A DNA stretch of 64,000 bases from Oidiodendron maius Zn (taxonomy: Eukaryota > Ascomycota > Leotiomycetes > Myxotrichaceae). The stretch is from NCBI GenBank assembly GCA_000827325.1, contig KN832883.1:720552-784551 (forward strand). Direction: 5' to 3'. Below the pieces are notes generated by a model, which did not search any database, was not told where the DNA came from, and saw only the letters and a list, made by a program, of their open reading frames with translations. Position numbers and translations under genes: made by a program. Below are positions 1,259 to 28,270 of the stretch, in pieces. Position 1 is the stretch's first letter; each line of letters opens with the position of its first letter.

Positions 1259-3993
1259 ATGGAAGCGGTAGGAGTCAAAAATATTCGAGAGCTACTCGAA
1301 TACCGACAATTAATGGAGGAAAGCAGGTCGAAAACGGCCACAAGGCACTCATGCCAACGGAAGCGGCCGGCAGCACCTCCACAGCTCAGCTGCGAGCTTT
1401 GTCGAGAGAGAAAAGTCAAGTGCGACAAGCTAGAACCTTGTACCAATTGCATTTCATCTGGTGTTATCTGTGTGCCGATTCACCGCCTACGATTGCCGCG
1501 TGGCGTCCATGCCCGCTCCCGCCGGGCATCACCGCCAGCACCAACTGTGCATGTAAAGGCTCACAGCACCAATGCTGAGCTTAATGAGAACAGTCTCAGT
1601 AAATGTATTCAGAGACTTGAGTCCCTCGTAGACAGCCTGGGCTCAACGACGACTAGAGCGGAATGTATATCATCGGGGTACAACCAAAGGCAGGTAAGTT
1701 GGCGTTGAATCTCGCTGAAGACACTGATAAAATCATGCTGAAAATATCTCCTGTAGTCTATTAAAAGCTCGCCAATATCGAATGTCACTCCAGTACATGC
1801 GAGTCCCAGGGCGTCGGAGGCAGCAATTTCCAGAGGTGGCCAGAAACAGACTATCTTGATACCGCAGCCCGATCACTCGTGGGCCGACTTAGTTGATGAG
1901 GTAGGAAGGATCTCACACACACAAGGATAACGCAAGCATCCATCTATTCTGGCCAGTATGCTGACCCGGCCGCCGTAGATAAGTGAACTCCATGATGAAA
2001 CGACTTCAAACGAAGAGGACGAACACAACCCACAACAACTATACTCTACCCAGGCCAACTTGACCGACAGCGGCATTGGTGTTCTGGGATTGGGCGCATT
2101 ATGTGACACGCCGCTTATCCCCAATCACTTCACTCCCAGAGTCTCAGTCAGTGTAAGTCAGATGTGTCTGGTCTATCTCCGGCAGGTAGACCCGGTTATC
2201 AAGATTCTTCATCGGCCGTCCCTACAGGGGTGGTTGGTACGAGGAGAAGGATACCTAGGTTACCCATCTGGGCATGCCTCAGTCGACGCTCTGAGCGCGG
2301 CAGTATGCTACTCTGCAGCGAGCAGCATGACGGAAAATCAGTGCCACGCATCCTTTCATACCAACAAATCTACCGTCGTAGCAGACTATAGAAAGGCATG
2401 CGAGGCTGCGATGCAGAGGGCGGACTTACTAGCGACACGAGACATTACTGTCCTTCAGGCGTTTGTGTTATATCTCGTGAGTGTCTATATATATCTTATA
2501 AATGCATAGTGACAGAGAATTTGGAGCTGATATTTTGCTATTGTTTGGTGCTAAAGATTGCAAGGAGATCAGAGGACCGTAGCAGAGCCGTGTGGACTCT
2601 AATCGCAGTGGCTGTCAGCATTGCGAAGTCCTTATGCATCTATCGAGATCCAGAAATGGCGGCTGGACGTGAGGAGAGCTTCTTCGATCAGCAGATGCGA
2701 AGGCGGCTGTGGCTCACTACCTGCCTGATAGACTTCCAGGCCTCGTTTGGTCTGACCTCCGAGCCACTTATCAGCCTCGAGGAAGCAACTTCTTCTTTTG
2801 TCCTACCACGACACGTCAATGACGCTGATTTCGACCATACTACGCAATACCCAATTCCTGTTAGAGAGGGGTTGACCGACACGACTTTTGCACTCGTCAC
2901 ATACCATGCACAACTCAGCGGACGCTTGCTTAACTCTGTTGCGGTGGAGAAGAGTAGGACTGAAAATTTTGGCATAGCCAACGGACAGCACGCAGCATCA
3001 ACGTCGTCTAATAACGCGTCGAACATAGAAGCGGAACGACAGCAGCACGCACAACGATTCAAGCAAGAAGCACTCAAGCTCTTACACTTCTGCGACCCTG
3101 AATCATCTCCATACGCCTGGTTCACTTGGCACGGGACACAGTGCATCCTGGCTGGGGTGCAGCTATTCGAACTACGCCCACTGCAGTGGGCACGGATAGG
3201 CGAACCAGTGCCGCTGCAGAGTGCAGAGGATGATTCAGAACTGCTACAGCTAACACTCCGATTTCTCGAGAAGGCGCAACTGATGTTGACCGATCCCCGC
3301 GGTGAGGGCTTCCGCTGGTATATCGTAGTTCCGTGGCATGCACTGGCAATAGCCATCGCCCAGTGCTACGTGTGTACCGACACCGCCCTCGTTCGCCAAG
3401 TCTGGCCACTTATTGAAGCGTCCTACCACCACCTCGAGATCGCCACTGCGAAGAGTGCTAGCGGAATGCAGCAGCATCCTCTGGGAAAGCTAATGCACCA
3501 GACACGGGAGAAACTGGAGGGGTTTCAGCACTTTGATCATATTGCAATAGAAAATACATACTTCAGCAATACTGGCGTGCCCGCAGAGATCACGCACTTA
3601 GGAGCAAATGCTGTTCTAGTTGAAAAATCAACTCTCTCACCTTGGTCGACAATCCCTTTACCTAGCAATTCAGATTCCATCACTGGGCCTGCTTATTCCC
3701 CACCAGCGGCGCTACTCCCACAGCAAAGATGGAGCCCGTCATGGCAATCTCTCCAGGGCCACCCTATGATCACCTCTACGCCTACATTATCAATGACAGG
3801 ACTATCTCCTTCACCACAAGACATCCTAGACCAATCTTGGAGGCCGTTAGAGGAGCTTGTACCAGGTATTCACTTAAATGAGTTTGCAATTCCCGGCTTG
3901 TATTGTGAAAATAGGCCAGTGAAATCTCTCATGATAGCACCTTATTTCATCGCAAACAACGAGGCATTGGAAGCATGGGAGACCTTGGCTTAG
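1259..3993 (+). CDS. Zn2Cys6 transcription factor with fungal-specific TF domain
   Basis: Model join(1259..1693, 1757..1900, 1979..2476, 2557..3993), 837 residues. All three introns (63, 78, 80 bases) have GT-AG borders and keep phase. Residues 45-71 hold CX2CX6CX5CX2CX6C (CELCRERKVKCDKLEPCTNC...), the binuclear zinc cluster that binds DNA. From about residue 255 the fungal transcription-factor middle homology region follows (VYLRQVDPVIKILHRP; later RAVWTLIAVAVSIAKSL). It probably acts in the nucleus as the pathway-specific activator of the neighbouring cluster; whether it controls the PKS genes, the RiPP genes or both is not visible. The start is uncertain: an in-frame ATG at 1313 would remove 18 residues. 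Confidence 0.88.
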
Positions 3994-4329
3994 GGGTTTA
4001 CGGGTATGTCATCCTAATATTTGACAATCAGGATGAGCCTCTAGAGCCCGTGGTTCCTGTGGTATGATTTATCATGGCGTACATTAAGGTAAACGGCAAC
4101 TGGCTTGCCTAGCGAACTAGACTTCAGTTTTGAAACAATTCTATGTTTTACAGTAAGTGACCTCGATGTTTATCTCAGCCAGGTGCAGCCTTGCCCACAA
4201 GACAGATTCAACCTCACTGGCTTAGATTCTGCAGAGATCTAAAGTAATGGAGAGCATAGACGCGCAGACATTCACGCTCTATGCGTACCAGAGAGATTCA
4301 AGTGAGGACTGTATAGCCTAATATACGTC
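3994..4329. other. Intergenic, no gene seen
   Basis: About 340 bases between the regulator's stop and the HET relic. I see no coding signal; it should hold the regulator's 3' untranslated region. Confidence 0.4.
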
Positions 4330-5262
4330 GAACCATTTCCCAGGCGCCGAAAAACAGTGCAGTGCGAGATCAAAGAGTTCCCTTTGCAGAAACGTATACC
4401 ATTCGAAGCTTTGTCATATGAATGGGGCGTGGAGATCGTAGGCAAAACTCTTGACCTCCCATCTTGGGTCCCCAACTAGCAGACCTTCCGTCGATCCGAA
4501 GAGGCTTCCACGGCGTGGATTTTATGCTCATGTCCGCAGATGGTTAAACCAAAGTGAGAAGGCGAGACGTCGGCGACCCAGCTCGTCTCATGCCTCAAGG
4601 TATCCAAATCGGCCACATCAAAACCGTGGGGATGTGTAACAAACAGCTCCACCGAACCACGGGCCTTCGAATTCGTGCACCACACACAACTCAAGGAATT
4701 CGAGCAACTCCCTACTCACGCCCGCACCACTAACATAACTTCCCTTTACCAGTTCACTGATGAGCCAATCCAACTAGCCTACATGCGAACACGCTTCTGC
4801 TCCGACTTTCCCTACCGCCATTTCAACCCCTCCTCCCATTTCATCGACCTGCGCACTGGCGAAGTCGCCTGGTTAACAGTCTCGGGAATCCTCTTCACCG
4901 CCAGCCCCCCCCTCCTCCTACGCGGATCCCGGGAACCAAAATTCTAGCGTCAACGAAGATATCAAGTCCTCTTTGCTCCAGCAGTCAGCGAATAATGTCT
5001 TCACCACCACAGAAACCGGAAATATGGGCATGGCTCTTCCGGTTGTACAGGTTGACGACATTGTCTTTGTTTTGATTAAGGGGAGGTTCCCAGTGGTTCT
5101 CCGATCGGCGGAGGGTGAGACAGATACGACAAGTGCAGATCCGGATGTGCACAATTTTGTGTGTCTCTGCTCCCTTCACAGCTTAACAAATGGGAAAGCC
5201 CGGAGACGGCCGGTGGATTCATTCCTACTCGGCATTACCGCAGAGCATGATCACGAGCAGTC
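4330..5262 (+). pseudogene. Decayed heterokaryon-incompatibility (HET) domain gene
   Basis: Pieces of a HET-domain protein can be read in order but in different frames. First comes FEALSYEWG near 4405-4431, the family's ALSYxWG motif. Next is INQSE near 4548, the end of the usual WIDAxCINQ motif, after a stretch that no longer reads as protein. A conserved-looking middle follows at 4675-4947. The C-terminal signature is near 5049-5210 (DDIVFVLIKGRFPVVLR, then a degraded version of the usual YVHGxMxGE). Stops and frame changes separate the blocks and splice sites do not repair them, so I call it a pseudogene. Intact HET proteins trigger cell death after fusion of unlike strains. Confidence 0.65.
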
Positions 5263-8200
5263 ACGCTGGTGGCTGGCATTCAGGTCAGGAGTTGCTGACA
5301 ACCACCGGATTGCATGAGTTTATTGTTGTGTAAATAGTTCTGTATATCATCTACTAATAGCTACAAACTACGACAAATGGCTATAAGTTATCACCTCAGG
5401 CACTCACTCCAATCTATGGCGCGTTGTAAGTTATTTCAAAAATTCAATTTAGGCTTTGTATCCTTTTTAATAATAAAAGCTTCATTTCTTTTTCATCATT
5501 TAACTCCGTGAAAACCTCCACAATCCGAGTCTTCCCCCACGTCGCTTGAAATATCTCTAATCTCCGCTGAGTAATGTGGCCTGACTTTGACCTTTACGAC
5601 CTCACAATAGGCGCATCTCGGGATACCACAGTCTGGATTGGGGCAATTTTGAGTTGTGATAGAGTTCCCGGAATGTCCGCATGCACACTAAAAGATTGTG
5701 AGCACAAGCGAATAGTTTGAGCCGTCAATTAGGGAACGTATATGAAAGGGGGGTTGTAACGTACACAGCGCCAAATAAAGACTGCTCGCTTCTTGGGCGG
5801 GCCCATTGTTGGGGTTGCCTGACGCTCTAGCTTCGAGAATTGGGCAAGATGATAAACGCTACCCTTGTTTCGGAATGATATGAGAGCTGTATTTAGGCAA
5901 TGGGCAGTGATGCTACACTGTAACTCGATGTTATCCCTTACTGCCAGATCGCAGGGTAGAATATAGCAATTGGGAATCGGATGACAACCAGGCAGGAATA
6001 GTCTAATTTGACAATTGACGAAGACGCTTCTGAATCACGAAGTTGTTGCCTTTGAGATTCATATCGGAAGATATATAGATAGCCATTGTAATGTACTAGT
6101 AGTTAAAGGGGAAATGCGGTTGAAGGTGGTGACAAGGTCCTGACGCAAGTCATTTTGTAATTCAAATAAAAGATGGTTCTAATGTTATCTAGCGCTCACG
6201 CCTAGTAATGAAGCTTAGTCCGCGACCTTGTGAGATGAATGTGACCTTTGGAGGCCTCCAACCACCTTCCACCTATGGAAGGGGTATCGTCAATTGGAAT
6301 ACATGGTTCAACCAGCTTATTATGCATAACAGCTCGTGCAGCTGCGTATTATGAAACTCAGAAAGTGCGACTCAGGGCAAGTCTCTCTAGCAGGTAACAT
6401 CCGGATCGACTTCCGAAATTAATGCAAGGGTTCAATCGATAATGTCGAGCAGCCGATTAAGTTTTGTGTGATGGGCCTCCGCCACATTCGTCACAAGGCC
6501 CCGCTATATCCTTACTGGCCAATTCGAAGGTTTTCGGGGGAGCTTTCCCCGGATCAATAGCCCGTCTCTATCCACTCGCTGGGAGGAGGCCTCCAGATCA
6601 GGGGCAGGGCTGCATGGATCCTGACAATGGCCAACTAATGGGCAGCCATGGCAGGCGTCTCTTATGCACTGTACCCTCGCACACGTGATCAACTGCATAT
6701 ATTTGTCGCTCTTGCGAAGTCGCGAAGCTGCCACATTTTCACATCAGCAAAATCTTTCCGAGCTATCACATTGCAACCGCAGCTATTGAAGTTTGTTTTC
6801 TTTTCCGCCCCGCTGCTCACCTTGTGTGCCAGTCAGGATAGGTCTGGCTTCACGCACCTTATTATCCGTATCGAACTTTGTATTTGGGCATCCTTCGTCC
6901 CATAATCTTTCGGAAGTTCCTGCACAGAGATGTGACAATCCAAAAAGAGCTCGACAGCCATAGTTAAGAAAGATTACGCTGGCAGAATCTTCCCACACAA
7001 GCCTGTCTAGCGGATATTGAGGGGCCATCAAACGATTTCCGATGTATCGTCTTCTCAAGATCATGGTCGAGGAAACTCTAGCCGATCCACAACTATCAAT
7101 CTCGAAAATTATAGCCTCTTTCATGACAGGATATTTCTATCATTATCCCCGGCTACCTGGGCACCTTCTCCGCTTCCGCGATCTCCCGATCCCCACCCAA
7201 ATTGAACACTCCATATTCAGAAAGAGAGCGAGATTTTGCGGTCAATCACCCGACCCCTCCACCAATCAGCAATCATTCTCCTCAGGATTTCCATCTTTCT
7301 CCTCCTGTCCGCCCTCTACAGCTCAGCGAGCTTGCAGTTTAAAGAGCAGCAGTTGAGCGCCCGCGTCCGCGATCTTCCTGTGTACCTAAAACCAGGCTTC
7401 CAACAAGCACTGTTAACAACTTTTATTGTAGCTTTACACGCCCAAGGCGCATGTCTCTGCGAGTATCGAGGACAACACGGATCTGCGATAGAAGGGCAAT
7501 CTAGATAGCATTCGAGATCGTTTCGTGGTGCTGGAGCTTGGCTAGAGCAATCTCTATCCCACGCCAATAATCTTCGCCCTGCCCGAGAATTTTTCTGGAG
7601 GCTATACCGAGACTCCTGCCGCTCAAACCTTACTCTCCCAAGAGGGTCTGGTGTTTCAGCATCAAGAGCACAACCAGCGTTACGAGTGCGATCAGTGTGG
7701 CAGAGTCTATCTCCGTCACTGCGATCCGATGTCACAGGGGTCGACCTTATTTACCTTTGCCACCTCGATTACGGCTGCTTCCACACTGTGGTTGTTGAAC
7801 TGATTGGGCAGTAATATAACATAAGGGTTCAATACAACAGGTTTTGTATTAAGTGCACTAAATTGACTGGATAGCTAACTACAATATGTGCATACTCTCT
7901 AATATATAGATCCGAAGCCCCTTCTGAGGTTCTATCTTTAGGCTTCACTCGTGCCGTGCGGGGTTACAAACAATATCATGTGCAAGCTAGCATCGGAGCT
8001 CATATTCTCGTAGTGACGTGGATTGCAGTGGCGTTCTTCTTGGGCAGCGCTCTCATCCCGGTATTCAGCTCGTGCCACTACTTCGGTCGCTCATGTACCA
8101 CGGAAACCGTCCTAATCATGGTGCCCAGACGGAGAAGTCTACTTGGTCGTATAATAAGGTTAGCGCTTTGTTGGCGCAGAAGAACAGCAGCTTCTGGCGT

Positions 8201-11549: not shown

Positions 11550-12765
11550 TTAGGGCGGTCTCGGCCAGACCTTGGAATCGGCTGGCATCGGATACCCAGT
11601 CGCCGGTGGAGGCGGTACCTCATGCTCCTCAATCCATCTGGCCACGGTATCGAGGTCACGGCATTTGTGCACTGTATTAAAATTGGCAAAGGGATCCGGG
11701 ATATCCTTTACCCAGTGGTGCGGGATGACGCCCACGTCAGCGCTGCACATGATATTCTGCCGAAGCATTTCAAAGCAGTGGTCTAATAGGTGCGATCAGC
11801 TGACTGTCCATTGCAATAGTGTGTGGATACTCACTGATGTGCACTTGGACGGTAATCGGTCTGTCGTTTAACCAGGTTGCCCATTTTTTGTTTTCTGGTC
11901 TTTCATAGTACTCCCTGTGATATGCTTGCCGAATCACGTTCAAACACTATCCCTCCGTCAGCTTGCTCGCAGGACAACACCAGTAATTCCAACAGAGAGC
12001 ACTTACATGCATCTTGTGACTAATCTCGAGGAACCCAATATACCCGCCTCCGTAGTCTTCAGTAAACTTGGCAGACCCGTCTAAGTCCATGCCCATTGCG
12101 GCGAATTCGTCGCGGGAAAAGCTGGCGTATTTCACTGGAGCGCTGGTCAGCCGAGGAGTTTCCAGGCCATGGCTGAAGAAGAGGGAAACGATGGGAACTC
12201 CACGAACCAAACTTACCGAACCCCCATTTGTTCCACTCGCGGTCCATGGCTTCATTTGGATCTCCCCAGTGGCCAGAAAACTCAGAATTCTTTCCAAGTG
12301 TGCCTGTTAGGATGTTAGCCTACCGTAGAAGGTTAAGAACGGTCTGGGGTAAATACCATTGAACTTGACGTCATGTAGCTTATTGCTAACTTGATCCATT
12401 ACGGTTGCTAAAACACATTAGAGCCAGTTGGGATGTTATGTCTTAGTGAACAGACAGTAAGTTGAACTGTGCCTCATGCATTTCTCGTCAATGTAAGGCT
12501 GCCATGCTCTTCCGAACAGAAAGGCTCCCACTGCAGTGACCACCAAGATACAGGTCACGGTGATGATAGAGAGGACACCGAAGCGTCGACGCGGATGGTA
12601 AAGACTGTAATCTTCGTCGCGGAGGAGAGCACGCGCACCATCCTGGTTGTCAAGGCTATCTTCGTCAGAAGTTCGTAATGATTTTTCTAAGCTTGCGGAT
12701 GGCACCGCAAAGTACATCTGCGGCCGGCCGAGTGAGCCCTTGATGACTTGTATCCAAGATCGCAT
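11550..12765 (-). CDS. UstYa-family (DUF3328) oxidase-like protein 2
   Basis: Six exons: 12765..12456, 12407..12357, 12303..12217, 12134..12007, 11946..11835, 11782..11550; 306 residues, every join in phase. A cytosolic N-terminus is followed by a membrane helix at about 63-85, the YSTVMDQVSNKLHDVKFNG block typical of UstYa proteins, then HKMHC at 189-193 and HINHC at 228-232. Both HxxHC motifs are formed across introns, which helps confirm the splice choices. The first donor (GTCTGT) is the weakest. The gene ends about 1 kb upstream of the precursor gene on the other strand, so the two are divergent and may share a control region. Likely role: oxidative cyclisation of the precursor peptide in the secretory pathway (inference from family and context). 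Confidence 0.9.
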
Positions 12766-13792: not shown

Positions 13793-14164
13793 ATGGTTAA
13801 GTTTACCACCACCATCGTTATTGCCTTTGCGTGTCTCGCCGCCGCCGCACCTACCAATGACTACCCCAAGTATGGCTCTGTGGGCGATTTTGAGGCCGTC
13901 AACAAGGGGAAGCGCACAAATGACTACCCCAAGTACGGCTCTATAGGCGACTTTGAAGCAGTCAACAAGGAGAAGCGTACCAATGACTATCCAAAATACG
14001 GCTCCGTAGGCGACTTTGAAGCTGTGAACAAGGAGAAGCGCACAAATGACTATCCAAAGTATGGCTCTGTGGGCGACTTCGAGGCAGTCAACAAGGAGAA
14101 GCGTACCAATGACTATCCAAAATACGGCTCTGTAGGCGACTTCGAGGCTGTCAACAAGGATTAA
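13793..14164 (+). CDS. Repeat-containing secreted RiPP precursor (dikaritin/UstA-like), five core units
   Basis: Single exon, 123 residues, ATG in good context (ACACCATGG). Residues 1-19 form a signal peptide (MVKFTTTIVIAFACLAAAA). The rest is five units starting at T21, T42, T63, T84 and T105. Each reads TNDYPKYGSxGDFEAVNK followed by GKR or EKR; the last ends in NKD. KR at units 1-4 is the site cut by Kex2 in the Golgi, so five 17-21-residue peptides can be released. The units differ only at one V/I and one G/E position. This architecture (signal, multiple identical cores, Kex2 sites, UstYa genes alongside) defines dikaritin precursors. Tyr24, Tyr27 and Phe33 of each unit are candidates for side-chain cross-linking. 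The core is unlike the ustiloxin, phomopsin or asperipin cores I know. A secreted pheromone-like repeat peptide is the alternative. Confidence 0.9.
   Translation: MVKFTTTIVIAFACLAAAAPTNDYPKYGSVGDFEAVNKGKRTNDYPKYGSIGDFEAVNKEKRTNDYPKYGSVGDFEAVNKEKRTNDYPKYGSVGDFEAVNKEKRTNDYPKYGSVGDFEAVNKD
13853..14161 (+). repeat. Five tandem 63-bp coding repeats of the precursor
   Basis: Units at 13853-13915, 13916-13978, 13979-14041, 14042-14104 and 14105-14161 (the last shortened by the stop). Units 1, 3 and 5 start ACCAATGAC and units 2 and 4 start ACAAATGAC; the KR codons alternate as AAGCGC and AAGCGT. Differences are nearly all synonymous. The alternation suggests growth by duplication of a 126-bp pair. 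Confidence 0.95.
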
Positions 14165-14845
14165 GCGTACGGATGCCTCTTAACTTCTCATTGAGATGTT
14201 TGGCTGTATATCCATCAGATAGATGAGAACTGCTTGCGGTTTGAGTTGTACCGGTAGCAGCATATACAGAAATCTACAAAAGCCATTTGCATCCTTCAAT
14301 GATTCTTTTTGGTGGTCTAGTCCATATTGAGTGAAAGCCTAAGCATATGAAATAACGACTAACAGATTCGCAAATAACGGCAGCTTTAGAGAGAACTACA
14401 ACTCGGTGTAAGCCGCCTTAGCGTCGGTCCTGCATCTGCATCAACCCCGCGCTAGCGTCGACCCCACTGCCAGCAAAAATTTCCAGATAAGGCAGGATAT
14501 TCCAGTGATATTGAAACGTCCTCCTGGGCCACTGATCTCAGCATGGTATGTAATGTGCTCGCTGCAAGGTAGTCGTTAGCGCGGATTAACACTGAGCTGA
14601 GAGGCCTTAGATTATCACATTATTGGTGTAAATCTAGCTGTAGGAGGTGTAATTTAGCCAGCTGGGAAATCAACTACGTCCCCAAATGACTCGTATCTCA
14701 GTCACCCAACAAGTCATATCCATGTACCCTCGGCTACCTCCCTGGGTCCAGAAGGCATAGTCCACACAGTCTGTATCTCGCGTTTTACTTTCGCTTCATT
14801 TTGCTAGAAAGCCTCGACTTACACGATACCAGACATTCCCTCACA
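14165..14845. other. Intergenic, no gene seen
   Basis: About 680 bases between precursor and the next cluster gene, both on the plus strand. It holds the precursor's 3' region and the promoter of the next gene. Tandem words such as CTAGCGTCGACCCC and TTAGCGTCGGTCC occur near 14420-14465 without an obvious function. Confidence 0.35.
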
Positions 14846-15598
14846 ATGACAGAGAACTCGTATGTCCAACATGTACGTCTAAAAGCGCAGTTACTAACTG
14901 ACCAATACAGCTCGTCTCCGTCTTGTTCAGAGCCATTCATACCCAAGGGCGACAAACATGAGTTTTCGGAAATTAAGACCAGCGATGAAGAAGACGCCGA
15001 CTTTGTAATCCCTCACGCTCGGCCACAAAGTCGTCTTCGTACAAACTTGTGGTTTATCTTCAAGACCGTCATAATTGTACTAGCTAGCTATGGACTCGTC
15101 CACCTCGGCGTATCGACTGCAGCTAGCATCCGAAGAGCTGCAATGCCGCCGTGCAATTGTGGTTCCTCCATCGCAGAGGCACTCACCCTAGATTGCAAAT
15201 ACGATTCCCTCTCCACCTCCTGGCTCCCACCGCACTGCCGTGATGACGAACTGACTGGCCTCTTTGAAAAGTCCGGCCCTGGCCCAAACGGTGAATGGAA
15301 TTACTACGCCTCCAACTTGAACACATCCAAGATATTCACACTCGAGGAAATGGCACATCTGGCAGAAAAGCCAGACTCAGAACGACAGGCCTGGGCGACG
15401 TTAGAGTGGCATGACAAGCATTGCTTTTTTACATTATTGAAACAAGTACGCGGCAAGGTCAAGATGCAATACACGGGATTTCCGAGCGCAACAGCGCATG
15501 CGGAGCATTGTGCGATGGGCATGGCCGAGGGTCGGCCAGGGAACCAAATTCTTGTTTCAATGAACCCTGGATTTGGAGATGCAAAGCCCGGCGAGTAG
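14846..15598 (+). CDS. Divergent membrane protein with two HxxHC motifs (UstYa-like)
   Basis: Single-exon reading of 250 residues from ATG 14846 (context TCACAATGA). An acidic cytosolic tail is followed by a membrane helix at about 68-89, then PCNCGSSIAEA, a WLPPHCRDDEL block and GPNGEWNYY. Two HxxHC motifs follow: HDKHC at 189-193 and HAEHC at 218-222. The spacing resembles UstYa proteins but the surrounding sequence does not match canonical DUF3328; it belongs to a widespread fungal group of CGC/WLPxHCRD proteins. Lying between precursor and UstYa 4 on the same strand, it is a good candidate for a further tailoring oxidase. The 5' end is ambiguous: 14873..14910 looks like a 38-base intron (GTACGT, TTACTAAC, ACAG). 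Used with ATG 14862 it would also keep frame, giving a start MSNISSSPSC. Confidence 0.8.
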   Translation: MTENSYVQHVRLKAQLLTDQYSSSPSCSEPFIPKGDKHEFSEIKTSDEEDADFVIPHARPQSRLRTNLWFIFKTVIIVLASYGLVHLGVSTAASIRRAAMPPCNCGSSIAEALTLDCKYDSLSTSWLPPHCRDDELTGLFEKSGPGPNGEWNYYASNLNTSKIFTLEEMAHLAEKPDSERQAWATLEWHDKHCFFTLLKQVRGKVKMQYTGFPSATAHAEHCAMGMAEGRPGNQILVSMNPGFGDAKPGE

Positions 15599-16344: not shown

Positions 16345-17215
16345 ATGCTCGACACTGACCCTGAGAACGAAGTGCCTTTCCTGCCCAAAGATCATGAGAC
16401 CACACGGAAAGCACACCGTGACTACCAGAGCGGCCAAGCAACCCGACGCTTGATTGTCACTGTCGCCTTAGTCAGTGCTTTGGTTTCTGCTGCCGGAACG
16501 GTCATTATGCACAATCTTCTTCCAATATTTTCCATTGCTTCAAGTAGAAGCCCACCGCGACCGGAACTTCTTCCATCTTTGAACCTCCCTCCGCTCGGAA
16601 ACCTTATTCGAACCTATGTCGGCGATCAACGGGCATATTATGATAAAGATCTAAATGTCAGCCGTGAAGCGTGGATGTCGTTGTTTCCTCGTATGTTGCT
16701 TGTCCTTTAATCGCTGTTGTTGATACTGATCGAACCTCAGCGGGAATGGGCTATGTTTCTATGGACAGCATAAAAGACGCGGGAGAAATCCCTCAGCTCT
16801 TTCAGGATATGAGCACGGATGGCTCAGGACGTTTCTGTATTGCTGCATTCCATCAACTCCACTGTCTCGTAAGCCTTCCCATTGCTTCATTCGTCACCTC
16901 TTTCTAAATGCCAACCAGTTCCTCATCTACGCCGACTTTCGTCGCGCCCTGAGTGGTAAACTCACACATCAAGATGCACATGTATTGCAAAATGGGCATT
17001 CTTCACATTGCTTTGATTATCTCCGAGAGAGTATTATTTGCGCCGCAGACAGTGCTCTTGAACCCTTCCGGTCTCCGTTCGATGGTGGCACTCAAGGTAA
17101 CGGCGTCGATGGCTTTGGAACTGTACATCAGTGTCGAGATTTCAAACAGTTATTTGAGTGGGGTGAAAAATTTCGATACAGCGATGGGCATGACGCAGAG
17201 AAATTTGAGGGCTGA
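16345..17215 (+). CDS. UstYa-family (DUF3328) oxidase-like protein 3 (fourth HxxHC protein of the set)
   Basis: Model join(16345..16690, 16741..16868, 16919..17215), 256 residues; two 50-base introns, both in phase. A membrane helix lies at about 36-56. The motifs follow in family order: SLFPPGMGYV, HQLHC at 153-157, HSSHC at 185-189 followed by FDYLRESIICAAD, and DGFGTVHQCRDF near the end. This is the most canonical of the four HxxHC proteins here. Its likely role is oxidative macrocyclisation or another radical-type modification of the neighbouring precursor peptide in the secretory pathway; this is inferred from ustiloxin, phomopsin and asperipin pathways. It marks the right end of the putative RiPP set. 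Confidence 0.93.
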
Positions 17216-17553: not shown

Positions 17554-18333
17554 CTATTTCTTCGGATCCCTCTTCATATACCTAATTATATACCTTCCCC
17601 ATTTCCCGCTCCCTTTGTCCCCCATAACCTCCTCGTCCTCTCTCGGCCTTCTCGGTGCCCACTTATCCAGATCTAGGTCTAACTCCCTCACAACCTCAAA
17701 CCCGAATTTCTTATACGCCTCATACGCCTGATGTGATGAATGCACCCATATAGTTAGGCCCAACTTATCTGCGATAGCATTACCATATTGAAGCAGGGCG
17801 CTGCCTACGCCTTGGGATTGGTGCGAAATCGAAACATGGAGACCGGTGATAAAAATGCAGGGCTTGTCCTTGGGAACGATGTTCGACTGCCAGTGCTCCA
17901 TATCACGGGCTTCGAGAGCTTTGAGACGATCAATTGAGTCTTCCTCCTTTTTCTCTCCGCTATCATTCTTGTCCTGATTTGCCAACTCATCCTTCTTCTC
18001 ATGATGCTCTTTGGTTACCGCTAACTTGTCATCTCCGGGTCCCCTCCAAGGAATCACCGCCTCATCCACGTCTTTAAACGCCCAGCCCGCATGCCCCACG
18101 GTCTCGCCGGTCTCCTCGTCTATGGCTTTGACATAGATTTGCGTTTTTCGGTCAAGGCTATCGAGCATCATGGAGCAGATGATGTCGTACATATGGTATG
18201 GTTTCCGACCTAGGTTTTTCACGGTGGTGTGGGGGTCGACAGCGAAGGCGGAGGAGGTTATCTGAGCGCAGGTGGGGATATCTGCGTAGTTGAGGGGTTG
18301 TATGGAAACAGAGATGCGCTTGCTGGGAGGCAT
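17554..18333 (-). CDS. GNAT-family N-acetyltransferase
   Basis: 259 residues from ATG 18333 (MPPSKRISVSIQPLNYADIP). The frame stays open upstream to 18525, but those residues look like untranslated sequence and the chosen start fits the family. GNAT features are visible: an N-terminal strand-helix (RISVSIQPLNYADIPTCAQI), the GLHVSISHQSQGVGSALLQ acetyl-CoA loop (the Q/RxxGxG/A motif), and the YKKFGFEVVRELDLDL end. A lysine/glutamate-rich insertion divides the domain. Many fungal relatives are housekeeping or detoxifying enzymes, so although it stands between the RiPP set and the PKS I do not assume it belongs to either. Peptide N-acetylation would be a testable possibility. Confidence 0.85.
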   Translation of the reverse strand: MPPSKRISVSIQPLNYADIPTCAQITSSAFAVDPHTTVKNLGRKPYHMYDIICSMMLDSLDRKTQIYVKAIDEETGETVGHAGWAFKDVDEAVIPWRGPGDDKLAVTKEHHEKKDELANQDKNDSGEKKEEDSIDRLKALEARDMEHWQSNIVPKDKPCIFITGLHVSISHQSQGVGSALLQYGNAIADKLGLTIWVHSSHQAYEAYKKFGFEVVRELDLDLDKWAPRRPREDEEVMGDKGSGKWGRYIIRYMKRDPKK

Positions 18334-19221
18334 GGTAGCAATAAAGAGAGTAGACTCTGTTGTAGCGGATAGGTGGGAGGAATAGGAGTAGAACTTTGTT
18401 GGGGTAGAGCCTATAGCGGTGCCTTGGAGGGGTAATACAGTAGAGACCGTCGTAAGCGAGCCGACAATTATGAGTAGCGATAGGTTTACGATAAGATGAT
18501 ACTCAGAATCAAAGGCACAATTCAATTTTTGGTACTACATGTCACCAGCCTGCATGAATCTTTAATCTTAACCAAACACGCCTGTATTTTTATATGTCCT
18601 AATACAAGGTGTCAGACGTCGCTAATTCCAGAGGCTACTCCTGACCAACCCTGACTCCTAACCACCTACCTGTGTATCCTTCTAGCTGTAAAAGAGTACA
18701 GAAACGGTTTGATACCTTACAGGATATTATATAATTTCCCATGGAATCTCATAATACTATTCATCTGTCAGTATATTAAAGGTCTAACGGGTGATATGTA
18801 GCTGGGTGAGATTAGCTGAACTCATAATATTTTACCAAGCGATCCCTACTAAATTTAGGCACCTTCGCTGACCGCTTTTCGCAATTCCCAAAAAGGCTTG
18901 AATGGGAGTCGTGCTACCGACTAGACTTTACCGTATCTACTAAACAGTGGGTATAATAACTGAGCGGAGCTATCTGTGACGAGCTTTGCATCAAAAATCA
19001 CAATCACGTATCGAGTGCTGAATGGTATTGGCCTGGGTCCTCGTCCTCAAAGAGATGCGTCAGAATTCAGGAAAGTTGAGGAAGATAATAAGAAAACAGT
19101 CAATTTTTTAGCAAAAAATCCTTTATAAACGGACAAGTCTAAGTATATATGTCGCAATTTAGTCCACACAACTGACACAAAGCCCTCCAACGCCTGTGTT
19201 CTTTCACCCAAACCTAGTAGA
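18334..19221. other. Intergenic between acetyltransferase and PKS 3' end
   Basis: About 890 bases, AT-rich, no coding signal recognised. It contains the acetyltransferase promoter and the PKS 3' region. Confidence 0.35.
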
Positions 19222-22200
19222 TCAGCAATACTGCTCTAACCAGGAAGTCATGTCCCCAATAGTTGGACACTCAAGGAAGAGCGAGCTTTTCACCTCTATG
19301 CCTAACTCAGCGCGGAATTTCTCTGAAAGGACAAGCGACATGAGCGAATCGATTCCCAGCTGCACAAAACTTGCGTCAGCGGTCAGGTCTCCGATATCCA
19401 GACCAGTCTCGCGAGCCATGAGCTGCAGGCACTGGCCGACCACGCCTGACTCAGTAGGTGTAGCAATTCCTGGTGTATTCCCGCTCGTGGTTGTAACCAT
19501 CTCCGATGGAGGAGTGGGTGGCTGCGTGGGAACCACGACATTGTTTTGGGTGGGAGGCTCTTTGTTCATCGGTTGCATGGAATTTGTTGTCCCGTTGACC
19601 TTAGCCGATGGGGCAGCGACACCAACAGCCGGTACAGAAGGGGGGAGCAGAGAGGATGTAGCAAGTATGCGAGTTGTCTGGGTAGCAGGAACATGATCGT
19701 TATTGACACCATTCGTGTCGGCAGGGGAGAAGAAGCGGTCCATCAGAAGACGTGGGACTCGCCTGAATCTTATCTGTCCAACCATGCCAACAATCTTATT
19801 GTCCTGCAAAATGTACACGTCGCCACCGTACATGTTTCCACCTTCATCCGGCAACTGGAACATACGCACATAACTGCGGTATTTAGCTCCAGGTTCGAGT
19901 GGCTTAAGCAAGCGGAAGCTATCACATCCAGGAGTGACGTAGAAGAAGTCGCGCGAGTTAGACGCATCACTTCCGTTCATTACCAGGCCCGCGAGGTGTG
20001 ACACACTATCAATCCAGTGCGGTGGCGTGTGCCAGTTTCCGTGGCGCTCTGGGATGAGAGTAATATCCGCCATGGCCTCGTGTTCATGCAGCACCACACT
20101 GTCCATGCCGCGATATCTGTCGGCGTAGTCTACCACGTTTTTGAAGAGTGCGTACGCCAGAGGCTTGGACAGCTTGCTAGCAAAACCCTTTGCCGCCATG
20201 TGCTCGAGCACCTCGATACGACCAAGGACGAGGTGTGTGACCCTATCCCACTCCGTGCACCAAATACGGGCATCTTCGAAACGCACGACACCACTCGCAA
20301 AACACTCAGCAGCACGCTCTCCCGTATGAGGGCTAGCATTGAACCATGCCAATGTCATGGATCGTGAAGTAAGGTCGAGATAGGCTTCAACTACAAGTGG
20401 CTGCGAGCTGCCTTTCGTCTTATTGGCAACCTGCGCATGCAAGACCTCGAACTCGCCGAAATTCATGTGTACATCCTTTGCTTGCGGCACAAGCCGGTTG
20501 TAGAGGTACTCACCGATGGTCAATGCCATATCGGTCCAGATGGACTGTGACTGCTGTTAGCTGTGATACTCTTTTAGGCTTGTTCCAAGAGCGCAGGAGA
20601 AAGTGCTAAATTAAATTGACACTGGCCGGAAGAAGTAAATCTACTCACCGAGGTAGCAACGCCACAGTTGTTCATCTTATGTCCGTAGACGGCCTCAAGG
20701 AAATCAGGGTGCTGTAAATCTGAGAGGATTTGGAGAGTAGCTGTTGACTCCTCGACCGTCTCGTATGTGATTTGATGGATAAGTGAGGTTCTCAAAGCAG
20801 AAGTACTCAACGTTGGCGGTCCCAGTGCCTTGCCGTTGCTGCCCTGTCCGCCGTGCTTTAGATGCGCTTTATCAAGAGTCCAGGTACCAATGTAGGGAAT
20901 CCAGTAATTTGTCTCATTCCAGCTGTACTTAGGAAGACTGAGCAGAGTATAGGCTTTCTCGTTGGGTCTGAAATACTCAGCCCAGGTCAGCTTCAGACCT
21001 GCCAGATGCAGCGTGGCAAGGCTCCTAGCCATGGTGGCCATATTATCCTCGTTTCGTCGGCATGACGAGGCCACGCGAGCCTCTGGTATAAGACTGCGAA
21101 CAAAACCTGCACATATGGGATGCGGTCCGACGTCAATCCACAGTGTAGCATCGTCAACCATTCCGAAGTCCTGCCCTGCTTCGACGGCTGCTGCGAAGTC
21201 CACCGTCTCGCGCGCCGCACGACGAAGGTAACCTGCGTTGATCGTCTTGCCATCAAATACAGCACTGCCAAGTAGAGGTGACAACACGGGGATGGTGGGA
21301 GCCTTGAAAGGCACATGTTTAGCAGCGGCCTCGAATGCGTCCAGCACGGCATCCATCTGCGCCGTGTGGAATGCCAAGGGCATCTCTAGTTGGACACACT
21401 TGTGGCTGCTAGCTTCCAGCTTCTGGCGGATGATATCGATATCTTCTCTGGCGCCGCCAATGACAGTGTCTTGGTAAGTATTGCGGCATGACACCTCGTA
21501 CTTGGCGGCTCCGACAAGTTGCTCAATCTCATTGGCTGAGGCACGAACCGACAGCATCGAGTGACTGCCCAGAGTACACCGCTCTTGGATCAACTGGGCA
21601 CGCTTGCCAACGAGATAAAGGGCGTCGGCAGCGGATATGACGCCAGCAACGGCGAAGGCTGCATACTCACCCAGGCTGTGGCCGACGACGGCACTGATAC
21701 GGACACCCAGGAGCGACCAGAAGCGGGCCAGGGCAATCTCGAGCACTACGACGCTAAGTTGGGACAGGACTGGCGAAACAGGCCCATCGTCCTCGTTGAT
21801 GCTGCCATCAATGACAGGGACGATGGAAGGGAAACCGAGTCGCACAACGAGATGGTCAAGTTGCAGGACCTGTTCCCGGAAAAAGGGGAACTCGGCAAAT
21901 AGCTCCCTGCCCATGCCACTGTAGAAGGCACCCTGGCCAGTAAAGGCTAACACCACAGCGGGAGGCTCGGAAGGAACGGGACGCACATCAGTAAGTGTCG
22001 TGTCCTGCAGGGAAGAGCGCAGGAACTTCTGCAGCCCTGTGATGCTGGAGACGGCAGTGGCTGTACGCAGGCTATGGTGCATGCGTCGAGCACATACCGT
22101 ATAAGATAGATCGGCCAGATTTGTTTCTGGGTGCTGGTCCAGAAACGCAAGCAGATTCTCCACGTTTGATTGTAGCGACTTCTTGCTCTTGGCCGAAAGC

Positions 22201-24859
22201 ACGATCGGATGGGTGGATCGCATGTCTGCACTGGCCTGAGTCGTGCTTCTCTCGGGTCCATCCTCGAGGACCAGTGTGGTATTACCACCGTGCGCACCAA
22301 AAGAGTTCACCACGGCAAGTCGCTTCTTTCCCGACGGTCGCGTCCATGGCGTGTTTGATAGGGCTAGGCTGACATTGCGACGTTCAAGGTCTTTGGGGAT
22401 GGCAGGGTTGACCTCTGTCTTGATACCGATATGCGCGGGGATCAAGTTCTTCTGGTACACCAGCAGTGCCTTGAGCAGCGAAGAGATACCCGCAGCGGCC
22501 TCGCCGTGCCCGATGTTGCTCTTAACTGCGCCGAGGTAGAGTCGTTGGTCGGGACGGCGGCGTGGCATGGCCGGTGCAAACACGTCCAACACAGACTCAG
22601 ACTCGACCGCATCACCAGCCTGGGTGCCAGTGCCATGCAGCTCTACATATCCCACATCGAGAGGGTTGACGCCAGCACGACGTAGCGCTTGGCGGTAGTT
22701 GTCCTTCTGGGCCCCGGCGTGCGGGTGCGTGATTGATATGGCCTCAGCTGAATGATTTGTGCTGGCCGACAAGACTACTGCAAGAATGTTGTCATTATCG
22801 GCCTCAGCATCCTCCAGCCGCTTGATAACGACGGATCCGACTCCGTCAGCACGGCAATACCCATCGGCATCCTTGTCCCAGACTTTGCACTGCCCTGTCT
22901 TGGATAGGAAATGGCCGTTGCAAAGGCCAGCGTAGTTGTCTGGGTCCGTGATTACGTTCAGTCCTCCGGCAAGCACAGTATCGGCCTCGCCCGCCCACAA
23001 CGCCGAACAGGCAGCATTCACGGCTGCCAGCCCGCTGGAGCAAGCCGTGTCGATGTTAAAAGACGGGCCCGCGAACTTAAAGAAGTAATTGATCCGTCCA
23101 TTAGCAAACGCTCGCTCACCACCGGGCACTGCGTACGTGCTGATATTCTGTGAAGCGTTAAGCTCACGCCAGTCATCGCTGGCTTGCCCATAGAATGTGC
23201 CAATACGCTCTGATCGAGAAGATGGCGTGCGGCCGGGGACAAGACCTGCCATTTCCATGGCTTCATAGGCTGTAACGAGTGCCAGGCGATGCATTGGGTC
23301 CGTTTGCTCGGCCTGTGATCATGTTAGAATACTAGTAGTACTATATCCCTTCGTCTACTTATGTGGAACATACCTCTCTTGGAGACATGTTAAAGAAACC
23401 GGCATCAAAGAAACCCGGACGGTCCATGAAGTTACCATATGGTGTCTGCGTTGCGTTCTCTACCTTACCCTCCGGGTCAAAATGCGTCTCCAAGTCGAAT
23501 CGGTCGGCAGGCACGGTCGTGTGCACATCCCGACCTTGCTCAAGCAGCTCCCAGAAGAGCTCTGGGTCATTTGCGCCACCAGGCATTCGGCAGGCCATAC
23601 CAACGATGGCCAGTTTTGAATCAGCATATGACCGGGGCTGACGAGCACCGTATTCCTCGAGTGACCATGACACCATGTCGAGACGTGAGAGCTCCATAGG
23701 AGGAAATTCTGCCTCAACGGATGCTAGAATTCCTTTCAGGACGAGAGAGTTACGGAAAGAGTCGACCTGGCAGTGCGCTGCACCAGATACTGCACAGAGG
23801 ATGCCGGCTGTAACATTATCAAGGTAGATAGTCCCTGTGAGCAGCTCGGTGCCGATCTCCAGGAACAGCTCGCGGGCCGTAGATGCTGCGAACGGCTTTC
23901 CGGTCTGTGACGAGAGCAGGGGAAGTCGCACTGGTCGTGAGACGGGGATAACAGACTCAGAGCTGTTGATAACAATATCAATGCTTTCCTGGCTGTACAG
24001 GTGTGCAGCATGGCAGAGGCCGTCATGGACTGGGAGTGGGAGTGACTTGGAGTAACGAAGGACGTGCGAGTGCTGAAAAGCGGCTCTGAGCCGCGATGGC
24101 GGACCGGTAACGCTGACAGATCCCTTGTCCGCGGCGCTTATGAACACCTTTGTGAGCTCTGGGCTTCCTGTTTCTGCGTTAAACTGTGTCACCTCGGCCT
24201 GAACGGCGTCTTGTGTCATCTCAGTGACAACATGAGCCCAACTCTGAAGTGTACCGTCGGGCTGCGGCGCCTCGAGTTTACGGGAAATATCGTCGACATA
24301 GACACCCAGTCGGAAAGAGACTCGGACGCTCTCAGGGCCGTTCTTAGCCACGTCTGCTATGCTGGTAGATAGAGCAACAGCTGCACCAGCAAGCAGTCCA
24401 ATACTAAGGCCGGCGAGTGTGGCCTTGGATTGGACAAGATCTAATTCAATATCCTCGGCTTCATGATATCTATATGGAGAAAAAGGTTAATACATTAGTA
24501 CCTCTCCATTTTGAAAGACTCAGGGTAAGACCATACCCGATAAACATTCCGAGTTCGAGTACGGTAAGTAACGCACTCTCTACGGCTGCTCCAAGCGCTC
24601 CCTGTCGAAAGTCGCCGAATTCTGCCAAGGTCAAGATGGTATCGAAATGAGGCATCAGGTCCTTCAATGGCTGTGGGAGTTTGGATACCTCATCCTTAAG
24701 AACTGATGTCGACTCCTCGAGAAAGGCGGCGAGTAACCGAAATCGCCTATCTTTGCTGTGCCTGAATAGGCGGCGGAACAACTCTTTCAAGTCATCGTTA
24801 GGGAACTCGTTCCCAAAGTATACTAACTTCGCATGAGTCCTTTCAAGACTCTTCTTCAT
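19222..24859 (-). CDS. Non-reducing polyketide synthase SAT-KS-AT-PT-ACP (atrochrysone carboxylic acid synthase-like)
   Basis: Four exons: 24859..24537, 24469..23374, 23312..20649, 20544..19222; 1801 residues, all joins in phase. Domains: SAT about 1-350 (GLSIG at 128-132, with Ser instead of the common Cys); KS from about 393 (Cys564 in DTACSSG, His699 in HGTGTQAGD, His742 in SNIGHG); AT about 925-1230 (Ser1019 in GHSLGEYAA); PT about 1310-1640 (His1351 in GHKMNNCG, Asp1540 in HWIDSVSH); one ACP (Ser1761 in LGIDSLMSL). It ends right after the ACP, with no TE, Claisen cyclase or reductase domain. This length and layout are those of ACAS-type NR-PKSs, which build an octaketide and depend on a separate beta-lactamase-type thioesterase such as the one at the left edge. 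Expected product: atrochrysone carboxylic acid leading to emodin-type anthraquinones (inference). Confidence 0.95.
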
Positions 24860-25887
24860 CGTGTTGGTTTGACCACAGATCAACCCAGCAGACGTACAGA
24901 CAATAAGTGATGAATTAAACGCAATACAAGACTTTGGATCCAGTATTACATATAGCTTGAGAAGTCGATATAGTGAGTTAAGTACATTTGAAGTCTGCAC
25001 TTCTTTCCGAGACTAATTTATATTACAAAAGCCGGTCCTGCCAATTGTTAAATTTCTTACCGATTGTTACTTCTGGTGGGCTTTTGGATAGCTAATGGAG
25101 TTCATGCGGCTGAGACCTGTGTTGAACTCCTTGCCTTTCAACATGCCACTAACTAATAAGGGAAACAATTATGTCCACCTTCGCCCGCGTATCGTATTAT
25201 AATTAACGTGGCTCTCTCGTGCTGTTATTTTTAGTTACTTTCTCCCTGCTACGGTAGTGTGAATATTGAAACGTTCATGGGTCGAGATTACAGAAAGTTT
25301 GACATAGCGTAGTCTCAATAAAACGTGGCATGCAAAATCCGAACGGTTGAGAAAACCGACGCTAAATTCAATCAACTTTAGGCGCACGGTCTTATCAATG
25401 GAATATAGTGCGAACAATGGCTAATATGTAAAATCCGAGCGACGTGAAGTGTAGAGTGTAGGTGTTGCCCAAAAGCCGAATGCTCCCGAACCATCGCTTA
25501 AATCCACACGGCACACTGACCAGATCCCAGTTACCACACTACCTGTTGCAATGCCAAGTCGGAAGGAATCCTAAAGAACCTATATCAGAGTAGACAGATA
25601 GACATTTCCCGCTGACTCGTAAACTTCCCGTAAAGAGGACGGCAGATGTAAGCTTGCCATAACCTAGAAGCGTAACTCCTACCGATCATATCTTGGCCGA
25701 TAAAGAGCAGATGAACGGCGAACCAGGGAGAAATTTAAAGGGACATTCTCGTCTCATTTTCAGTGTCAGGACTATATTGGAGTAGGACCACACTGCATTT
25801 TGCGATATATCATCACGTCTCACAGCTCAAGTCAAACAACCTAGAAACAATAGCTAGTTGCCTGCGTGGCACAATAACTGGAGCACA
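24860..25887. promoter_or_regulatory. Divergent intergenic region between PKS and prenyltransferase
   Basis: About 1 kb between two divergent cluster genes, holding both promoters. The frame upstream of the PKS start remains open to 25000, but the [20 protein letters not shown] start fits family N-termini. No other gene seen. Confidence 0.4.
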
Positions 25888-27332
25888 ATGTCGCCAGTGT
25901 ATCTCAATGTAAGATAATATTTCCTTTTAGATGGTTATATAAAGCTTCTACTCTGTCAAACTGACAATTCCATCTTCAACAGGGAAAGGCGTCAGGTATG
26001 GATGACCAGCTCCAGGTCTTCAAGGCTCTCACCGCATCCCTTCCCGCTCTAGACGAGCACCAGTCATTCTGGTGGAAAGTCACAGGCCGTCATATGGCTA
26101 TAATGATGCACGAGGCGGGTTATTCAGTAGACCGCCAAATTGAATGCTTGCTTTTCCACCGCCTTACGATTGTCCCCAGCCTTGGACCGCGACCTACTTC
26201 TACAAAACCATGGTTCAAAAGCCGCGTTGGCTCAAGTGCTGGCGACGGTACTCCTATTGGATATAGCTGGAGATGGGGTGTTGGAGGTGCAACGCCATAT
26301 ATCCGTAACTTCGTGGAACCAATAGGTGTGCTCACCGGAACACCCGCCGACCCCTTGAATGAAGTCGCGATGAAGGAGTTTCTATGGAAACTAAGTAAGG
26401 TTCTGCCGGAAGCCGACCTGTCTCTCTTCTGGAAGTTTTCACCTTACATCAGGCCAAATTTGACGGATGAAGAGACACGGCAGAAATTTACGAACTCCGC
26501 TATGCTAATGGGTTTGGAAATGAGTCCTGAATCCAACACATTCGATATCATGGGATATTTATACCCGCTAGTTCCTGCACAGATTAGCGAGCTCCTCGTT
26601 AATATCATGCCAAAGGCAATGCGTGCTGCATACGGCGCCGATGTATGTCTCGACTCACTCAATGCCGTCCGCGACTTCTTGGCCACAGACCCAGACGGAA
26701 TTCAGCTCATCCCGCGAGGCACTACGGCTATTGACTGCTGTAAACCACAAGACGCGAGAGTCAAATGTTATGTGGTAACTCGAAATACATGTTTTGATCA
26801 CATCGCTGCTATAATGACGCTTGGTGGGCGCAAATCTGTACCGGCTGAGATGATGGGCCAGCTTCGGAAATTATGGTATGCTCTCAGAGGGGTTGATCCC
26901 GACTTCCCTACATCAGCCCAACTACCTCCAACTGAGGAAGCAAATGGTGGTGTTGCTGCTAGTCCCTATGGTGCTAGCTTCTATTTTGACATCCAGCCTG
27001 GGCAGCCACTGCCGGGAGTCAAGGCATACTTTGAGGTGGGCAAACATGCCAAGAGCGACATGGCTGCTGCCGAAGCCCTTACCATCTTCCTGGAGAACTA
27101 TGGACGCGGGCGCCATACCGGGGCTTTCTTCAATGTTTTACGCTCTCTGGCGTCTGTTGAAGAGCTGGAGACTCGTCGTGGGGTGCAGGGATTTATCTCT
27201 GCCGCATTTAAGAGAGGCGAGCTCGATATCACCTCCTACCTTAACCCACAGATTTATGGGAGATTTGATGATATCGCGACCGAATTAGAGAAGTCAATGA
27301 TTGTAAGGCAACGAAGGAGCTTGTTTGAATAA
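25888..27332 (+). CDS. DMATS-type aromatic prenyltransferase (ABBA fold)
   Basis: Model join(25888..25908, 25983..27332), 456 residues. A seven-codon first exon (MSPVYLN) joins in phase through a 74-base intron to GKASGMDDQLQ; without it the protein would start at an internal Met. The sequence is DMATS family throughout: FWWKVTGRHMAIMMHEAGYS, IGYSWRWG, EPIG, LSLFWKFSPYI, VKCYVVTRNTCFD, GVKAYFEVGKHAKSD, FFNVLRSLASVEELETRRG. These enzymes move dimethylallyl or longer prenyl groups onto aromatic acceptors (indoles, tyrosine, polyketide phenols) in the cytosol. Divergent from the PKS, it most likely prenylates the PKS product. Prenylation of tyrosine in the nearby peptide is possible but less likely, because the precursor enters the secretory pathway. 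Confidence 0.95.
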
Positions 27333-28270
27333 ATGATTCGGACGGCAATATTTGGGACAGTTGGGAAGCTACATAGAGTAAGAAGACGATTGTTCCTGCT
27401 TTGGAGTGAGCATGGAGCACCTGGGTGGACATGTGAGTAATTACATGGCGTTATTTTAGATTGAATTTATCGAGGTTTTCTAAGAAGTAATAATTGAATA
27501 GCCTGTTATGAAAGAGTGTATCGATATATGTTCGATATGACTTGACAAGAACACTTGTCATGATTGCTTGTTCCAGAATGAGCCTTTCAACATATATATC
27601 CTCTCTTCTTAATATGTTTTCGGAAATCTAAAGACGTAATGTAAGCATTGGCTGCGAATTGGGTTACCAGAATCCAAACCGAATGTTGCGGAGCCCAACG
27701 TCATTTCAATAGACTGCAGCAGGTTTCGTTCTCGAATTGCAATCCTTTCAGTCAAAACTAGCCACCAGATCGATCCCCTACCAGCCCATGGACTTTGTCG
27801 TCCCTCCTAGAGAATACACACCCATGACAGATATTACGGTGTAGTTCGGCGATATTCTGTCCCTCCCCGGCTCACAGCAAGCGGATATTCAACCGCGGTG
27901 GCAGAATCCTTTTCCAGCGACAAGGACACAAGAGTGGATGTACCGAAAACCAGAGCCGAAAGCTTTAAGGTTTTTTAATGCGGGGGAAAATCGGAATTAA
28001 TCTAGGAGAGTGAACAATCTTCCATATACAGTTAGAGAATAGAGGGGTAAATTGCCGGACTTAAGAAATTGCTGCTTTAATTGGCAGTGCATTCAAAAAT
28101 TGGCTGTGGCTGGACAGAACCATTTCCGAGCATAGCAGCCGGATGGAGAGTTGCAGACGATCTCCAGAAAATTATTTATTAATGTTTACGTACAGTGTTT
28201 ACAGCATTGGATTCTGTCTATATAACACGATTACTCTGCTCACGGATGGATACTCTTCGTTGCCGCAGCC
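27333..28270. other. Intergenic, no gene seen
   Basis: About 940 bases between prenyltransferase and tannase-like gene, both plus strand. No coding signal on either strand. Confidence 0.35.

Follow-up and report, generated by a model that had tools for sequence, protein, structure and literature searches.

A five-core Kex2 repeat precursor beside canonical and divergent UstYa-type genes in Oidiodendron maius, a candidate dikaritin-type locus

Dikaritins are RiPPs that derive from Kex2 repeat precursors and are cyclised by an UstYa homologue, and the account in PMC10512285 counts five of them as reported by December 2022. Only five reported dikaritins stand against the 1758 precursors with DUF3328 neighbours given in a published survey (PMC7329392). 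Cleavage by Kex2 after KR has been proposed for the ustiloxin precursor (PMC6514808), and DUF3328/UstY enzymes are described as working in vitro, as having a dicopper site and as making the asperipin-2a link from a Tyr oxygen to the beta-carbon of a Phe (PMC12186524). Proteins of the UstYa family are also reported to hydroxylate, chlorinate and desaturate, and to be present in non-RiPP clusters (PMC12048977, PMC10512285), so the presence of an UstYa gene does not by itself prove a ring.

The window (the whole 64,000-nucleotide stretch of Oidiodendron maius Zn DNA analysed here) carries a gene built like the precursors of these systems. An earlier note, made from the sequence alone, had described a 123-residue protein with five units, GKR or EKR linkers and a final D, and both direct translation and Tandem Repeats Finder agree with that description. 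The features of the gene are as follows.

13793..14164, + strand: precursor, a single uninterrupted open reading frame of 123 residues plus stop
Precursor residues 1-20: signal-like N-terminus, MVKF...AAAAP
13853..13906, + strand: unit 1, TNDYPKYGSVGDFEAVNK, then GKR
13916..13969, + strand: unit 2 (V10I), then EKR
13979..14032, + strand: unit 3, then EKR
14042..14095, + strand: unit 4, then EKR
14105..14158, + strand: unit 5, then D and stop

The body of the protein consists of five 18-residue units TNDYPKYGSxGDFEAVNK, in which x is V, I, V, V and V by direct translation, joined by four linkers of the Kex2-type dibasic kind (GKR once, EKR three times); Tandem Repeats Finder returned the array with a period of 63 bp. 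Of the 13 nucleotide columns that vary across the five 54-bp units, 12 fall on third codon positions (hypergeometric P 6e-7); 66 of the 70 pairwise codon differences between units are synonymous. This concentration of mostly synonymous differences at third positions argues that the array has been kept at the protein level and is no chance open frame. The start of the protein is hydrophobic and ends in AAAAP, its signal character being judged by eye and from the pattern M[VL]K...A[AT]P with which this precursor and the five relatives described below all begin. A search with the precursor (E up to 10) found no second copy in the own genome (45.9 Mb, 58 contigs). Just past the stop, positions 14159-14180 resemble by eye the start of another linker and unit, a resemblance from which the array may once have been longer; the last unit of one precursor relative (P0003) likewise ends in NKD.

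The precursor is directly flanked by two genes that encode paired HxxHC motifs, here called gene 1 and gene 2, and lies near two further UstYa genes and a transcription factor gene.

11550..12765, - strand: gene 1, canonical UstYa, 306 aa, HKMHC and HINHC, six exons (12456-12765, 12357-12407, 12217-12303, 12007-12134, 11835-11946, 11550-11782)
14846..15598, + strand: gene 2, divergent UstYa-like, 233 aa, HDKHC and HAEHC, exons 14846-14859 and 14911-15598
16345..17215, + strand: gene 3, canonical UstYa, HQLHC and HSSHC, three exons, Pfam 83 bits
8921..9753, + strand: gene 4, canonical UstYa, HQLHC and HFMHC, three exons, Pfam 65 bits
About 1388..3993, + strand: Zn(2)Cys(6) transcription factor gene, Zn_clus 36.9 and Fungal_trans 23.8 bits, its end taken from the open reading frame; a possible cluster regulator

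Gene 1 matched the Pfam UstYa family at 156 bits against a cut-off of 25, scored on a model with 11 extra residues; the same model was the query in the search for gene 1 relatives, and the final six-exon model follows comparison with relatives. The earlier note's statement that UstYa genes lie alongside the precursor is thereby borne out, three genes scoring 156, 83 and 65 bits, above Pfam's threshold of 25, in addition to the divergent gene 2. From the 70 UstYa matches in the own genome, the chance of finding one within 2 kb is at most 0.7%. Pfam (E up to 0.01) returned no tyrosinase, methyltransferase, transporter, peptidase or isoflavone-reductase family in window bases 1-33,600, in six-frame scans that read single exons and that short or divergent genes can escape (gene 4 was missed once). 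The contig of the window (C14) had no tyrosinase match, all nine tyrosinase matches of the own genome lying on other contigs.

Further downstream, positions 17698-29872 hold a GNAT acetyltransferase gene and the genes listed here, and may be a secondary-metabolite cluster distinct from the neighbouring peptide cluster.

About 24817-19237, - strand: non-reducing PKS (SAT, KS, AT and ACP domains)
26058-27122, + strand: tryptophan dimethylallyltransferase
28493-29872, + strand: tannase-type esterase

The PKS, prenyltransferase and tannase genes were considered as members of the peptide cluster and left out, as nothing ties them to the precursor. One or more genes for ankyrin-repeat proteins lie at about 30100-33000 on the - strand, and a 126-bp tandem array of about six copies occupies 63259-64000 and reaches the window end.

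Relatives of the precursor were sought among 5.8 billion proteins, in a database clustered at 90%, with E up to 0.001. Five precursor relatives were found among 6838 candidates, and one unit of each is given below.

Trichoderma sp. SZMC 28011: 79% identity over the local match, unit TNDYPKYGKFGEFEAVNN
Precursor on a 103,531-base contig: 78% identity, unit TNDYPKYGSVGEFEAANK
Rhypophila sp. PSN 637: 68% identity, unit TNSYPKYGKAEDYEAVNS
Xylaria polymorpha: 55% identity, unit TNGYIGYGSAEDYEAVNN
Trichoglossum hirsutum: 43% identity, unit TNDYPGYKFDGDTDPL

Over the aligned units T-N-x-Y-x-x-Y is invariant in all six precursors, and KR, preceded by varying residues, ends every linker between units in all six. 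In the Xylaria protein a single Arg, in place of KR, closes the leader, and the annotated Trichoderma protein has 82 residues upstream of the matching Met. Position 13 of the unit is Phe in three precursors, Tyr in two and Thr in Trichoglossum, whose unit has a Phe at position 9 and keeps Tyr4 and Tyr7, just as its locus keeps both flanking genes. The later Phe that had been proposed as a core element is therefore not fixed, being Tyr in two relatives and Thr in Trichoglossum. Since that residue is not constant, the shared Tyr4 and Tyr7 are the best candidates for modification, and these are the residues that conservation singles out for attention. Pfam placed no family over cut-off on the precursor or its relatives apart from MsrA_helical on the Xylaria protein (30 against 23.7 bits), a match confined to 20 residues where the repeats begin, which we took as chance.

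We then asked what accompanies the precursor in these fungi. Relatives of gene 1 (n=22) and gene 2 (n=65) were collected at E up to 0.001 from the database clustered at 90%, and linkage was judged from locus tags and from equal contig size, the latter being an indirect sign of it.

Trichoglossum: GP486_002006 (gene 2), GP486_002007 (precursor) and GP486_002008 (gene 1), all on a 22,121-base contig
Rhypophila: V8F33_012884 (gene 2) and V8F33_012885 (precursor), with gene 1 on a contig of equal size, 54,403 bases
Xylaria polymorpha: CIB48_g664 (precursor) and CIB48_g665 (gene 1)
103,531-base contig: precursor relative and gene 2 relative, by equal contig size

Four of the five precursor relatives thus shared a contig size with a relative of one or both flanking genes, three of these with neighbouring locus tags; gene 1 accompanied three of the five, gene 2 three, and both together two. 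No partner with a matching contig was listed for the Trichoderma precursor, where the clustering at 90% may hide one behind another representative. The earlier note had suggested searching for precursor homologues beside UstYa (DUF3328) genes and had named their consistent absence as grounds for rejection; an UstYa-type gene was linked to four of the five, a canonical UstYa gene to three of the five, and consistent absence did not occur. Relatives of the two flanking genes also coincided in contig size, with 7 of the 22 gene 1 relatives on a contig of the same size as that of a gene 2 relative, including PT974_07853 and PT974_07855 in Cladobotryum and F4805DRAFT_432819 and F4805DRAFT_432822 in Annulohypoxylon. 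Among the named hosts, Trichoglossum belongs to the Geoglossomycetes, and Xylaria (Xylariales), Rhypophila (Sordariales) and Cladobotryum (Hypocreales) to the Sordariomycetes. For genes 1 and 2 the closest named relatives come from Cladobotryum and Trichoderma; many branches were not settled in trees built from 16 of the 22 gene 1 relatives and 16 of the 65 gene 2 relatives. The recurrence of the core motif in two fungal classes together with the two flanking genes points to a candidate minimal set of precursor, gene 1 and gene 2.

Gene 2 itself matched no Pfam family at E up to 1. Both of its HxxHC motifs are invariant in all 25 relatives that were aligned (25 of 65), and with E up to 10 allowed, seven of these gave a PF11807 match, the best at 1.2e-4; two further relatives (P0041 and P0056) carry PF11807 in their database listing. 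A comparison of the gene 2 and gene 1 profiles was weak (probability 1.3%, E 0.041), and it lined up both HxxHC motifs. The predicted model of a Cladobotryum relative of gene 2 (P0008) is good, with a pLDDT of 83.1, and places the two motifs on helices 168-183 and 197-209; of its 82 matches to solved folds at E up to 10, none reached E 0.001. For gene 1, the predicted model of relative P0072 (pLDDT 49.5) was too poor for comparison, and a sequence search of solved structures with both gene families gave no match at E up to 1. The invariant motifs and the PF11807 matches of some relatives suggest that gene 2 encodes a distant UstYa-type protein of a kind mostly missed by Pfam; the weak profile comparison and the absence of a solved-fold match count against it. 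The HxxHC motifs of both genes would suit copper binding.

The association of gene-2-type proteins with repeat precursors is seen again in the own genome. Searching it with gene 2 (E up to 0.01) returned gene 2 and 13 further matches at ten other loci, and of the 13 frames that fit the gene 2 profile there, 12 have two HxxHC motifs and one has a single motif. At seven of the ten loci an UstYa match with separate coordinates lay at most 3 kb from the gene 2 match; the bounded chance for seven of ten loci within 10 kb of an UstYa match is 2.7e-9. We looked for Kex2 repeats with a script that splits proteins at [KR]R sites and asks for consecutive pieces of which half or more are alike. Repeat precursors appeared at four of the ten gene 2 loci and in none of ten control stretches at round coordinates, a modest excess (one-sided Fisher P 0.043), and in one of five 7-kb stretches around UstYa loci that had no gene 2 match. 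In the remaining six gene 2 stretches the script found no repeat precursor; L011, one of these six, had no UstYa match either.

L004, own genome C11:630000-639990, positions 4840-5262, - strand: precursor with DTDESLVNVSY[V/I]VGPEKR units
L005, own genome C13:20000-29990, positions 5677-5997, + strand: precursor with [A/D]AEPEASVDEVYNVATYGIKR units, containing VYNVATYGI
L009, own genome C14:346000-355990, positions 4180-4539: precursor with ALNAVIVDEKR units
L010, own genome C11:185000-194990, positions 4068-4610: precursor with ALNAVKPDSEKR units
L023, own genome C22:445000-452000, positions 5633-6208: precursor with EEMALYDHDKR units, near an UstYa gene, no gene 2 match

L004 and L005 share the layout of the window, with an UstYa frame on one side of the precursor and a gene 2 relative on the other. 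The L009 and L010 precursors each lie between two gene-2-type HxxHC proteins, in stretches where no UstYa match was found, and their units have no aromatic residues, though their leaders do; modification of non-aromatic residues is possible at these two loci. The pattern points to a divergent HxxHC family, mostly unseen by Pfam, that sits beside repeat precursors of the own genome, two of them with aromatic-free units.

Taken together, these observations suggest that the window gene is probably the precursor of a dikaritin-type ribosomal peptide. That it is a Kex2 precursor with dedicated UstYa-type partners we hold to be very probable, and that its core becomes oxidatively modified to be likely. 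In the route we propose from the sequence, the precursor protein would enter the secretory pathway and be cut by Kex2 after each KR. KR ends are trimmed by a Kex1-type enzyme, and such a carboxypeptidase would here release TNDYPKYGSVGDFEAVNKE or a shorter piece. The proteins encoded by genes 1 and 2 would then serve as copper oxidases of the released peptide, the most likely chemistry being an oxidative side-chain cross-link between Tyr4 and Tyr7 of TNxYxxY, for example from a phenol oxygen to a beta-carbon as in asperipin-2a, with no tyrosinase. A small cyclic peptide centred on YPKY could arise by subsequent trimming. Two shared tyrosines three apart and the lack of a tyrosinase make asperipin-2a the closest working model, and the Tyr4-Tyr7 link specifically is a tentative proposal to which we give a little less than an even chance.

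Two alternatives within the dikaritin-type class bear on this last step. The core might be oxidised with no cross-link formed, the UstYa-type proteins hydroxylating or desaturating a linear peptide, which seems to us possible but rather unlikely. Precedents are described for UstYa homologues in phomopsin desaturation (PMC10512285) and in cyclochlorotine hydroxylation and chlorination (PMC12048977), and the two own-genome loci of gene-2-type proteins with aromatic-free units point the same way, because a protein whose relatives lie beside aromatic-free precursors may do something other than tyrosine chemistry and tyrosine may not be a target of gene 2 at all. On the other side, a pair of tyrosines three apart in all six precursors is easily explained as cross-link partners. 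A link from Tyr4 or Tyr7 to the later aromatic at position 13, as the earlier note envisaged, would fit the Phe or Tyr found there in five precursors (three and two of the six, respectively); we consider it improbable in view of Trichoglossum, which has Thr13, with its Phe at position 9, and yet retains both tyrosines and both flanking genes.

Outside that class, the product could be a Kex2 repeat peptide that is secreted in linear, unmodified form and acts like a pheromone or as another signal, with the UstYa genes serving something else. The unit is long, at 18 residues, and strongly conserved in its first part, as would be expected of a receptor ligand, and the survey counts 6120 of 7878 Kex2 repeat proteins with no DUF3328 gene nearby (PMC7329392). 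The immediate flanks of this precursor are nevertheless UstYa-type, such genes lie beside four of the five relatives, chance proximity to an UstYa match at 2 kb or less is at most 0.7% in the own genome, and almost all pheromone precursors in the same survey are described as having no DUF3328 neighbours (PMC7329392); we regard an unmodified peptide as improbable. Repeats by themselves do not prove processing, and the array might instead belong to a structural or cell-surface protein in which the dibasic sites are incidental. This we consider very improbable, given that every linker between units ends in KR across six precursors though the residues before it vary, and that oxidase-type genes lie beside four of the five relatives.

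If the own-genome loci are read together with the trio, gene 2 might stand for a second branch of HxxHC peptide oxidases, one that Pfam mostly fails to see and that acts either alongside a canonical UstYa protein (A+B) or as a pair of its own kind alone (B+B), with B+B pairs modifying aromatic-free cores. The TNxYxxY trio would then be a broadly distributed A+B case, present in both Geoglossomycetes and Sordariomycetes, and its role might be a conserved one as opposed to that of a lineage-specific toxin. We offer this wider scheme as a speculation that is less likely to be right than wrong; if true, the action of B+B pairs on the ALNAVIVDEKR and ALNAVKPDSEKR units would be chemistry beyond the known Tyr/Phe cross-links.

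As to novelty, the unit read directly from the translation upholds the statement that the core differs from those of ustiloxin, phomopsin and asperipin. That the system is undescribed holds in part: short core strings of the window precursor, its relatives and the other own-genome precursors are absent from literature text save for one unrelated match, and supplementary tables, which lie outside the scope of that search, may already list the precursor.

Among described systems, asperipin-2a (AprA/AprY, Aspergillus flavus) is like the window in having a repeat-type precursor, an UstYa-type protein (in its case the cyclase) and, as its four-gene cluster is described, no tyrosinase (PMC6514808), and its core FYYTGY is given with the Tyr-x-x-Tyr spacing that also occurs in YPKY of the window (PMC6514808). 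It differs in its core and in having one UstYa homologue, against three above the Pfam threshold plus a divergent one in the window, and window bases 1-33,600 are without the transporter or isoflavone-reductase family. Ustiloxin and phomopsin, as they are presented in PMC7329392 and PMC6514808, share with the window a repeat precursor, Kex2 sites and more than one UstYa gene; the signal peptide of their precursors has a counterpart in the signal-like start found here. Their cores are YAIG/YVIG and YVIPID and they require a tyrosinase, whereas the window has a TNxYxxY core, no tyrosinase on its contig and no methyltransferase family in bases 1-33,600. Epichloecyclins (GigA) and victorin are likewise described as having multi-core Kex2-type precursors and side-chain rings (PMC9233826), and the ring partners given for them, Tyr-Ile and Phe-Leu, set them apart from the window by description (PMC9233826). 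The window gene also fits the Kex2 repeat proteins of Umemura 2020, of which 1758 of 7878 have DUF3328 neighbours and 838 types are listed (PMC7329392). The window system is a further member of this known Kex2 repeat/DUF3328 kind, with a partner protein that Pfam misses.
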